64,000 bases of DNA from assembly GCA_002898555.1 (NCBI GenBank), contig BEHR01000016.1, forward strand, positions 1 through 64,000, given 5' to 3'. A program made the translations under genes and the position numbers. Each line of letters begins with the position of its first letter. Position 1 is the stretch's first letter. This DNA is from a bacterium HR15. GTDB lineage: Bacteria > Armatimonadota > Fimbriimonadia > Fimbriimonadales > GBS-DC. Positions 30,493-32,833 of the stretch are shown piece by piece. The notes below the pieces were generated by a model. The model was given only the letters and a program-made list of their open reading frames with translations, had not been told where the DNA came from and ran no database searches.

Positions 30493-31059
30493 TCAGCACC
30501 CTGCTTCCTTGATACCCAACATCGCCCGCAACCGCGCTAACGCCTCCACTAACCGCCGGTGAACCCACGACTTGCTCTTGCCCAGCAATTGCGCAATTGC
30601 CCGCTCGCTCAGCCCCTCCACATAATGCCAAACCAGGATCTGCTGTTCCTGTGAAGACAGCTGGCTCATCGCCTCGCGCACCATACAGCAATACACATGC
30701 TCGACTATCTCCGCCTGCGCCGTGGGATCCTCTATCTCCAGCTCCTCGCCCGTCTCTTCATCCACAGGCATCGCCACCAATCGCCTACTCTGTCGCCGCA
30801 GCTTACGCCACTCGTCTATAATTGCCCACTTGGCACGATCGGTTGCAAACGCGACAAGCGACTCGCCCTTCTCACCCCTATAGCGAAGAAAGGCTTGCCA
30901 AACGGCTTTATTGGCGATGGCGAGCCGTTCCTCATACCAATAATTTGAGCTATAGTTTCCCGGTGGCGGGAGCCGTTTGGTTAGGGCGACCGCTTGTTGG
31001 GCAGCTTGCTTGAGGTCGGGTGGGAGGTCGTCTGGTGGTTCAAGTGGCAGTGGTTTCAT
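30493..31059 (-). CDS. sigma-70 family RNA polymerase sigma factor
   Basis: About 188 residues from the ATG at 31059. Region 4 is clear: LSSQEQQILVWHYVEGLSER then AIAQLLGKSKSWVHRRLVEA (HTH). Region 2 is short and diverged (FATDRAKWAIIDEWRKLRRQ). It would direct polymerase to a special promoter set. A run of ten G (minus strand, 31064-31073) lies five bases before the ATG in the ribosome-binding region. It lies downstream of three genes for small envelope proteins and shares with the first of them a duplicated leader sequence, which suggests a regulatory link. Confidence 0.85.
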   Translation of the reverse strand: MKPLPLEPPDDLPPDLKQAAQQAVALTKRLPPPGNYSSNYWYEERLAIANKAVWQAFLRYRGEKGESLVAFATDRAKWAIIDEWRKLRRQSRRLVAMPVDEETGEELEIEDPTAQAEIVEHVYCCMVREAMSQLSSQEQQILVWHYVEGLSERAIAQLLGKSKSWVHRRLVEALARLRAMLGIKEAGC

Positions 31060-31063
31060 GGCG

Positions 31064-31073
31064 CCCCCCCCCC
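31064..31073 (-). repeat. G10 homopolymer at the sigma-factor ribosome-binding site
   Basis: Ten consecutive C on the plus strand (G in the mRNA), ending 5 bases before the start codon. Length changes would alter spacing or pairing with the 16S rRNA. Confidence 0.85.
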
Positions 31074-31241
31074 GCGCAAGCGTGCCCATCGATTTCGGGT
31101 CAACAGCATGGTCCACTCTCCATGCTACCCGTTCTGTTCGACTCGCCCGTGTGGTCAGCAACAGCGCTGACATCGCTGCCCTCCGTTCGAGAGTAAGATA
31201 CACCAACTTTGCCCAGATTCCTGCTGGTTGACGCGCTACTC

Positions 31242-31307
31242 TTAGGCAACGGGAGCGGGAATCATTGCTTCACCTGGTCTGCTCATTCGTTTCCCTGCTC
31301 TGCTCAT
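31242..31307 (-). CDS. possible 21-codon leader peptide
   Basis: An ATG at 31307 follows a strong AAGGAGGAAC and begins MSRAGKRMSRPGEAMIPAPV, ending at TAA after 21 codons. It lies 180 bases before the sigma-factor start. The front (duplicated leader plus MS) is identical to that of the gene at 32781, so it may be a vestige of a duplicated gene start rather than a functional peptide. Confidence 0.25.
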   Translation of the reverse strand: MSRAGKRMSRPGEAMIPAPVA

Positions 31308-31359
31308 CGTTCTGTTCCTCCTTCAGAGGGGTGTTCGCTTGACCCCTCCACATTAATTA
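31301..31359 (-). promoter_or_regulatory. duplicated 59-bp 5' leader with hairpin, copy 1
   Basis: Identical over 59 bases to 32775-32833. In mRNA sense it contains an AT-rich TAATTAATG stretch, a hairpin with 7-bp arms (GAGGGGT / ACCCCTC), then AAGGAGGAAC and ATGAGCA. Most of the remaining 31060-31370 gap, apart from this leader, the 21-codon frame and the G10 run, shows nothing I recognise. Confidence 0.7.
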
Positions 31360-31370
31360 GCTGAACACCC

Positions 31371-31988
31371 TCAGTAGCCTTGGGAAACATCGGGAAACAG
31401 CTTCGGGTCGGGGCACTGTAGCCCAGGAGTGGGCCATATTCTCTGGTTAGTACGATTGTTTTTCGTATAGGTGATAAAGGTATATTCTATCTTACCATCA
31501 CCCACATCTAAAACGCACAGTTGGCAGGCTTCCCCTACCGTAGGAACTCCACAACGGGGACGCGGTGGACGGGTATGACAGGGACACTGCACCACCAGAT
31601 CCTCACGAATATATGTACTGATGCTGTAATCAGGTGTCTCAATTGTGGAGAGCAGATACGGGTCCTTCAGGTTAGCATCATCGTAAGCTAATCGTATGGG
31701 AGGAATATGGTAAGCTTGCCCGCTCAGGGGGCACGATCCCACCTTCAAGCCTTCAGGCGAGAGCAACCAGCGTCTGAATTCTTTCGCCGTCTCCACATCC
31801 CAACGCCCTCCATTCTGTATCTTGAGCAATTTATATTTGGTATAAATTGCCCACAAGTTGGCGCGGCATTTAGCTTCCAGCACCCGATAACGCACGAGCT
31901 GCACCACCGGGAACAGCAACGCTACCAGCGCCGCCACTATCGCCAGCACTACCAGCAACTGCTTCAGTGTCCAACCCAATGGTCTCAT
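31371..31988 (-). CDS. pseudopilin-like membrane-anchored protein
   Basis: About 205 residues from the ATG at 31988, which follows GAGGTGCGAAG. The N-terminus MRPLGWTLKQLLVVLAIVAA resembles a type IV pilin/type II secretion pseudopilin: short basic leader, Gly, then a long hydrophobic helix. However, residue +1 is Trp and +5 is Gln instead of the usual Phe and Glu, so processing by prepilin peptidase is uncertain. The soluble part has several Cys pairs (CPLSG, CPCHTRPPRPRCG, CQLCVLD). It overlaps the stop of the gene before (ATGA). It may belong with the two small genes upstream in one envelope assembly. Confidence 0.6.
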   Translation of the reverse strand: MRPLGWTLKQLLVVLAIVAALVALLFPVVQLVRYRVLEAKCRANLWAIYTKYKLLKIQNGGRWDVETAKEFRRWLLSPEGLKVGSCPLSGQAYHIPPIRLAYDDANLKDPYLLSTIETPDYSISTYIREDLVVQCPCHTRPPRPRCGVPTVGEACQLCVLDVGDGKIEYTFITYTKNNRTNQRIWPTPGLQCPDPKLFPDVSQGY

Positions 31989-32260
31989 CTTCGCACCTCG
32001 CTTTGAATCGGCTTTTGCATCTGCTTTTGAACCTGCTGCCAATTGCGTTTCAACTGCTGCCGAAGGGTTTGTTCGTTGAGATTCGCTTGCTGTTGTTGAC
32101 ATCCTGCTTCACCTGTTGCTGTCCCAACAGGAGCAGGGGCTATGCGCGGGAACAACACGCGAACCTCAGGGCGCGTATAGAGGTAAGCACAAGCGAGAAG
32201 ATACAGCATAGCCCCGGCCAGTATCAGTGTGCTTCGCATTACTCGTTTCGCCTTGCGCAT
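31985..32260 (-). CDS. small membrane-anchored protein
   Basis: About 91 residues from the ATG at 32260 (AGGAGGGCGAA upstream). Basic start MRKAKRVMRSTL, one hydrophobic helix (LILAGAMLYLLACAYLY), a Pro/Ala linker, and a Gln-rich, probably helical tail (QQQQANLNEQTLRQQLKRN). No family is recognised. It is in the middle of a three-gene unit: 14 bp after the Cys-rich protein and overlapping the pseudopilin-like gene by 4 bp. Confidence 0.6.
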   Translation of the reverse strand: MRKAKRVMRSTLILAGAMLYLLACAYLYTRPEVRVLFPRIAPAPVGTATGEAGCQQQQANLNEQTLRQQLKRNWQQVQKQMQKPIQSEVRR

Positions 32261-32274
32261 TTCGCCCTCCTGTT

Positions 32275-32781
32275 CTATTTTTGTCCTGTTGGGATCACAG
32301 GCGTCACGGGAAATGGTACAGGTGTTCCTGGAGGTCCCCAGATTCTGGTACCTGGCGGCGGTCCACACGGATTACCACCGCAACTCTCACCTGCACTTTC
32401 GTAGATAACCGAGTCAAAAACCTTCTTAGGTGAGACATTGCACGCTGTACCGCTGGGGTCCACACAGCGATATTCCCAACAACGCTCTATAGCCCAGGCG
32501 CGGAGGTTGCACTCGTTGGCGGGAACAGAAGGGCACAACGGCGTGTTAAAACGACAGAGCAGTTGCCTCCTCACTTCTATAAGACTGGGGTATTCCCATA
32601 CGCATGGACTGGATGGACCAGCACACCTGGCTCCTACGGAGGGCGGGGTATCGTTGCAGGCGCGTGGCAAGCGGGGGTCGCATTGCCAGCCTGACACGAT
32701 GGCGGTCGTCAGCAGGCTTAGTCCAACAGCTGCACCCGGTAGGATGGCAAAGTTTCGCCAAGCAATCGGCTTTTTGCTCAT
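32275..32781 (-). CDS. Cys-rich exported protein
   Basis: 168 residues, family unknown. A hydrophobic signal or anchor (FAILPGAAVGLSLLTTAIVS) is followed by a region with twelve Cys residues, many in pairs a few residues apart, then a Pro/Gly-rich C-terminus (GPPPGTRIWGPPGTPVPF). Disulfide-stabilised surface or periplasmic protein is the natural reading. The ATG at 32781 follows AAGGAGGAACAGAACG within the duplicated leader. It is the first gene of the unit that ends with the pseudopilin-like gene. Confidence 0.6.
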   Translation of the reverse strand: MSKKPIAWRNFAILPGAAVGLSLLTTAIVSGWQCDPRLPRACNDTPPSVGARCAGPSSPCVWEYPSLIEVRRQLLCRFNTPLCPSVPANECNLRAWAIERCWEYRCVDPSGTACNVSPKKVFDSVIYESAGESCGGNPCGPPPGTRIWGPPGTPVPFPVTPVIPTGQK

Positions 32782-32833
32782 CGTTCTGTTCCTCCTTCAG
32801 AGGGGTGTTCGCTTGACCCCTCCACATTAATTA
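32775..32833 (-). promoter_or_regulatory. duplicated 59-bp 5' leader with hairpin, copy 2
   Basis: Identical to 31301-31359. It provides the ribosome-binding site and start of the Cys-rich protein gene. The hairpin arms GAGGGGT and ACCCCTC lie about 10 bases before AAGGAGG. Confidence 0.7.

Follow-up and report, generated by a model that had tools for sequence, protein, structure and literature searches.

A poly-G tract at a conserved position in a multicopy family of ECF-type sigma factor genes, a candidate phase-variable switch beside exported proteins

Sigma factor gene and three-gene module

The window, by which we mean the whole 64-kb stretch of DNA analysed here, carries a sigma factor gene and a module of three small genes on the minus strand (Table 1). 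In the direction of transcription, the order is the first copy of a 59-nt leader, the 12-Cys gene, the Gln-rich gene, the pilin-like gene, the second leader copy, a 21-codon frame, a promoter-like element, a ribosome-binding site (RBS) with its ATG, a leader frame, a run of ten G residues and the sigma body. The preliminary description had named the sigma gene, the three small genes (31371-32781), both identical leader copies and the 21-codon frame, all of which we confirmed. In our shorthand for genomes and contigs, G000 is the window genome (3.04 Mb) and C16 of G000 is the window copy.

Table 1. Features of the sigma locus in the window
Feature	Position	Strand	Remarks
ECF-type sigma factor body, 188 aa	30493..31059	-	TIGR02937, Pfam region 4, family alignment
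G10 tract, candidate slippage switch	31064..31073	-	ON frame in assembly
Leader frame, 33 codons	31074..31173	-	ATG 31173, RBS GGAGGG just 5'
Fused leader-sigma ORF, 226 aa	30493..31173	-	open across G10
Promoter-like element AGCAGGAATC-N14-GTATC	31197..31225	-	exact AGCAGGAATC at 31216-31225, once in window
21-codon frame	31242..31307	-	3' of second 59-nt leader copy
59-nt leader, second copy	31301..31359	-	100% identical to 32775-32833
Pilin-like protein, 205 aa	31371..31988	-	G-1, W+1, Q+5
Gln-rich membrane-anchored small protein, 91 aa	31985..32260	-	counterpart in C7 module
12-Cys exported protein, 168 aa	32275..32781	-	three more paralogs in genome
59-nt leader, first copy	32775..32833	-	carries RBS of 12-Cys gene

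The sigma protein scores above the curated cut-offs of NCBIfam TIGR02937 (67.3 bits; cut-off 42.9) and of the Pfam region 4 model Sigma70_r4_2 (45.2 bits; cut-off 25.7), and with 21.1 bits stays below the cut-off of 24 for Pfam region 2. Its size, its region 4 and its TIGR02937 score are those of ECF sigma factors, with a weaker region 2; it differs from them in forming a clade of its own with a DEETGE linker and a poly-G leader. No named sigma subfamily model reaches its cut-off on this protein, and no anti-sigma gene was recognised adjoining it. A search of 113 genomes of the class with a family profile (A1; E < 1e-20) places it in a multicopy clade that occurs only in the bacterial family of the window genome. 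Upstream of the sigma body the copies are laid out alike, with an RBS and start codon, then about 17-35 open leader codons, and finally a G tract and another start codon.

The promoter-like element upstream of the window sigma belongs to a pattern, AGGAATC-N13-15-GWATC, with 22 sites in G000, mostly just 5' of genes, against none for a reversed control pattern. We considered it as an autoregulatory promoter of the sigma family and dropped the idea because it precedes many unrelated genes; it appears to be a common, unnamed promoter-like motif of this genome.

None of the three module proteins reaches a Pfam cut-off. The 12-Cys gene has four copies in G000 (C16, C7, C19 and C38), all with a pilin-like gene on their 3' side, and a Gln-rich gene lies in between in C16 and C7 only. 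Two sigma-like genes lie just upstream of the C38 copy. A conserved set of four genes is not supported: the 12-Cys protein has no relative among 40 related genomes, and no sigma gene of the window family adjoins the C7 and C19 modules in the flanking sequence examined. A structure model of the 12-Cys protein (mean pLDDT 65), made in the search for a family identity of the Cys-rich proteins, has no PDB match at E<=0.001.

The unusual N-terminus noted earlier for the pilin-like protein is real in the window, where G-1, W+1 and Q+5 depart from the Gly-1, Phe/Met+1, Glu+5 rule, but W+1 is not a family trait, since the C7 paralog has an ordinary F+1 together with Q+5. The window protein has no match to Pfam N_methyl (PF07963), and a pilin-like neighbour of a sigma gene in another genome (G004:C7) does match this model. 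Judged from sequence, Q+5 and the missing N_methyl match speak against the window copy being an ordinary pilin. N-termini resembling that of the window protein are found at 47 loci in G000. Fimbriimonas has many pseudopilin genes per genome, with 79 PulG-like genes (PMC4072686); the presence of pilin-like proteins would therefore by itself be no surprise should the window genome belong to the Fimbriimonas phylum.

Poly-G tracts and reading frames in the sigma leaders

The G10 tract, which the preliminary description had missed, is the only G or C run longer than seven in the window. Sixteen sigma copies from six genomes share this position for a tract of G7-G11 (Table 2). In a DNA alignment of the sigma leaders the columns of the tract hardly vary, although the leaders are often otherwise unrelated. 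An RBS, a start codon and an open leader lie 5' of every tract. Genome-wide counts in G000, which rest on pattern searches, give 14 tracts of G>=9 per 3 Mb against about eight from a base-composition model. Three of the 14 fall within about 650 nt of sigma leader (0.0015 expected), as do three of the nine such tracts in G004 (0.0008 expected). Because the total of 14 is only a modest excess over about eight, it is the position of the tracts, not their number, that is remarkable.

Table 2. Poly-G tracts in sigma copies and frame from the RBS-linked start codon
Genome	Copy	Tract	Frame
G000	C16 (window)	G10	in
G000	C38a	G10	in
G000	C38b	G8	out
G000	C64	G11	in
G000	C52a	G8	in
G004	C16	G11	out
G004	C19	G8	in
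G004	C7a	G10	out
G004	C7b	G11	out
G008	C42	G7	in
G008	C7	G11	out
G009	C211a	G10	in
G009	C211b	G8	in; truncated by contig end just 3' of start
G016	C22	G10	leader ends at TGA overlapping sigma ATG
J014 (MAG)	two copies	G9, G10	J014-1 in, J014-2 out

On the assumption that translation begins at the upstream start codon, nine of the 16 leaders are in frame with the sigma body, six are out of frame and one has overlapping stop and start codons. The in-frame excess is modest (9 of 15 against one third expected; P about 0.03). Three near-identical leaders in G000 have unequal tracts (G10 in C38a, G8 in C38b and G11 in C64), and these are paralogs rather than strains of one species. One genome per species was compared. 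Homopolymer lengths can be miscalled in draft assemblies; such an error could alter single ON or OFF calls, but it would not account for a tract being conserved at this place.

These features suggest a switch within the sigma reading frame. Translation would start at ATG 31173 behind its strong RBS, run through the 33-codon leader and continue across G10 into the sigma domain. Slipped-strand mispairing at replication would add or remove G residues and thereby decide whether the leader is read into sigma in frame, leaving the sigma factor ON or OFF in each cell; a subset of cells would make the leader-sigma fusion, and the window copy would be ON. We infer both slippage in live cells and translation through the tract from these sequences. 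The sigma copies in G013, G001 and G011 have no G tract, which counts against the window sigma being a phase-variable regulator.

The start codon that follows the tract allows a different account, which we consider unlikely. Here the sigma protein would start right 3' of the tract, with the poly-G run serving as the RBS or lying near it, or with the leader acting as a coupled upstream ORF, and tract length would set the level of expression rather than the frame. An ATG, GTG or TTG that could serve as a start codon does lie 2-9 nt 3' of the tract in the copies examined, and translation could also begin there, which counts against frame switching. It most often reads NTGA, so that a TGA ending the leader would overlap the sigma start, as it does in G016. 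Yet a strong RBS and an ATG lie upstream in every tract-bearing copy checked, the share of in-frame copies exceeds one third, and in G011, whose sigma gene has no tract, the upstream start and the sigma body share one frame.

Long homopolymers can cause transcriptional slippage, and slipping of RNA polymerase or of ribosomes on the G run would let all cells make some sigma factor, turning the tract into a constitutive dosage device. The persistence of out-of-frame copies would fit such programmed slippage; we nevertheless hold it to be improbable, as tract length varies between near-identical copies and many copies are in frame, where slippage would be superfluous.

The 59-nt leader and exchange between loci

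The 59-nt leader with its hairpin had been proposed as a shared control element of the sigma gene and a surface-fibre module, a model favoured by the agreement of the two window copies at 59 of 59 positions. Our search of the 3.04-Mb genome found one further copy (G000:C7:96841-96910; 99% identical), and its place 5' of a paralogous three-gene module also speaks for this model. Three copies in all do not make a widespread element, and that idea was rejected. A regulatory hairpin was rejected as well, because the stem has 8 bp and the 59 nt fold at z -1.10 against shuffles, which is not unusual (related connectors range from -0.15 to -1.53). The sigma-side copy starts 11 nt 3' of the stop codon of the pilin-like gene, and between this copy with its 21-codon frame and the sigma body lie a stop codon and then the promoter-like element, RBS and ATG that belong to the sigma gene itself. 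The leader thus does not occupy the 5' region of both units that it was thought to control, and it is not the leader of the sigma gene. Since the sigma-side copy ends before these start signals, it looks like a remnant, probably left by recombination from a module copy that was lost or recombined.

Exchange also offers an explanation for the identity of the copies. Between the 12-Cys genes of the window and C7, none of 26.7 synonymous sites is changed in the first 35 codons, whereas dS after codon 35 is 2.3, near saturation, with dN 0.20. The near-identity extends through the leader and somewhat upstream. We read the two modules as old paralogs, and the homogenised 5' block points to recombination and not to selection on the protein, because synonymous sites in the block are also unchanged. 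The identity of the 59-nt leader, which belongs to this longer block, is best read as the footprint of an exchange. With these observations, shared control by the leader has become highly improbable.

A similar mosaic is seen between loci of different genomes. In a scan of named genomes, one relative was found, the MAG RFGC01000034.1 (J014, L146), which shares 4.3 kb at 94.8% identity with G004:C7 (L060), including a 242-nt leader at 99%. Between this leader and the next gene, 99.7% identical, the sigma bodies do not align. Because the body fails to align between near-identical flanks, we interpret it as replaced. The Acidobacteria label of this MAG is doubtful because of its 94.8% identity in synteny with G004, a genome of the window's family.

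A connector of the form GGAGGCGGGAATGG..CCCGCCTGCCAAC..ACCAAAAC.ATGGAGGAG, carrying a hairpin and perhaps a mini-ORF, recurs between sigma and exported genes in several genera (L010:3440, L010:1463, L009:820, L065:4942, L060:4524 and 10140, L064:1864 and L146:7566). Together with the homogenised start of the 12-Cys genes, the replaced sigma body suggests that conserved connectors are recombination joints. The conserved 5' blocks, namely the sigma leader on one side and the module leader with its signal peptide on the other, would be the joints at which the gene bodies that follow are swapped, and the duplicated 59-nt leader would be a consequence.

As improbable as shared control by the leader is a reading in which the sigma genes have no function at present and are either repeats in decay or passengers of a region that is mobile or recombines: some copies are indeed broken (C38b is frameshifted, G016 and G004:C18 have stops, and fragments occur in G004:C16 and G012), but most bodies are intact, the tract position is conserved across genera and the neighbouring 12-Cys paralogs are under purifying selection, as their dN and dS show.

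Exported neighbours and comparison with known switches

A small, Cys-dense exported ORF of diverse sequence lies near 13 of the 16 testable sigma copies, in several genera, and pilin-like genes adjoin several copies. The link between sigma factor and cell envelope drawn in the preliminary description survives in this looser form, not as a fixed set of four genes. A scan by the same rule found no such ORF in the remaining 54 kb of the window and eight in 142 kb of other loci, mostly ordinary pilins from loci that had been chosen for holding pilins. Ten exported or pilin-like neighbours were compared with Pfam, giving one match, to a pilin-like protein. In G004:C7 and G009:C211, exported genes follow within about 100 nt 3' of sigma and larger exported genes come next, those of G004:C7 also including pilin-like ones. 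The window, with the module first and the sigma gene second, is an exception to most other sigma loci, and this order counts against a phase-variable regulator.

On balance, we think it probable that the window sigma acts as a phase-variable (contingency) regulator, set in surface-protein loci that are modular and recombine. Sigma genes of this family would usually head a unit that includes a small exported protein, Cys-rich and highly diverse, and in some cases a pilin-like one, and linkage makes these neighbouring exported genes the most likely targets of the switch. A broader and more tentative idea, which we hold to be less likely than not, is a network in which several paralogous poly-G-switched sigma factors, exchanged as cassettes, would randomly turn on different Cys-rich or pilin-like surface sets. 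Alongside switches in the surface genes themselves, this might create combinatorial surface diversity, for example against phages.

We found no homopolymer- or slippage-switched sigma factor in the open-access papers searched. In Staphylococcus aureus, the DNA change that activates SigH is a gene duplication with fusion, and this system has neither a homopolymer tract nor a family of paralogous switches, unlike the window sigma. Its phase-variation-like expression nonetheless resembles the reading proposed here, in that altered DNA activates the factor in a minority of cells. A review describes two independent mechanisms of SigH expression (PMC7911514). The homopolymer contingency genes of Neisseria, Campylobacter and Helicobacter (PMC5320596, PMC2823697) also have a long poly-G run near the 5' end of the frame, lengths that differ from copy to copy, and in-frame and out-of-frame states; theirs are mostly surface, sugar-modifying or methyltransferase genes, whereas ours would be an ECF-type sigma factor of a multicopy family, its switching deduced from sequence. 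The flagellar switch of Clostridioides difficile, which affects SigD output (PMC5386303, PMC8890394), likewise places phase variation 5' of a sigma-controlled surface programme, but through RecV site-specific inversion 5' of the flgB operon and not through slippage within a sigma frame. Most known cases of homopolymer phase variation come from host-associated bacteria, where the genes concerned usually have surface, sugar-modifying or DNA-methylating roles. If our reading is correct, multicopy poly-G-switched sigma factors would let chance act on whole promoters, and would do so in a lineage for which phase variation is not known, a claim directly testable on existing sequencing reads.

Long G tracts also occur in other genes of these genomes. 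Each of the nine G>=9 tracts in G004 is part of a sigma gene or of a leader that begins with an RBS, and exported-type sequences follow most of these leaders. A prefix of about 15-45 codons and a G9-G11 tract mark exported proteins at G000:C17:29306, C29:48369 and C24:6119, in G009 (C76 and C224) and in G004 (C10, C18, C21 and C23). In two pairs of alike proteins one copy is in frame and the other out of frame (C29 with G10 and C17 with G9; G009:C76 with G10 and G009:C224 with G11), which speaks for switching by this design. At L004:6696-6851 (G000:C7), the C7 module is preceded by a frame of 51 codons that has promoter-like boxes and an RBS and resembles the poly-G prefixes of G004:C10 and C18, with a TG repeat in place of the G tract. 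At G000:C41:14538 (L089), just 3' of a sigma-like gene, G10 splits a signal peptide and a Cys-rich body into different frames, making this a candidate switched exported protein that is out of frame in the assembly. A G9 run fills part of the TTGACA/TATAAT spacer 5' of an exported protein gene at G000:C25:2691 (L084), a candidate promoter-strength switch. Other sigma-like genes have G9 in the stretch that links region 2 to region 4, out of frame at G000:C4:314 (L072) and in frame at G004:C14:264638 (L186), and at G000:C14:25993 (L074) G9 lies shortly 5' of a larger RpoD-like sigma-70 gene. Two further runs, G9 and G11, are inside CRISPR spacers (G000:C12:44410 and C15:50043).
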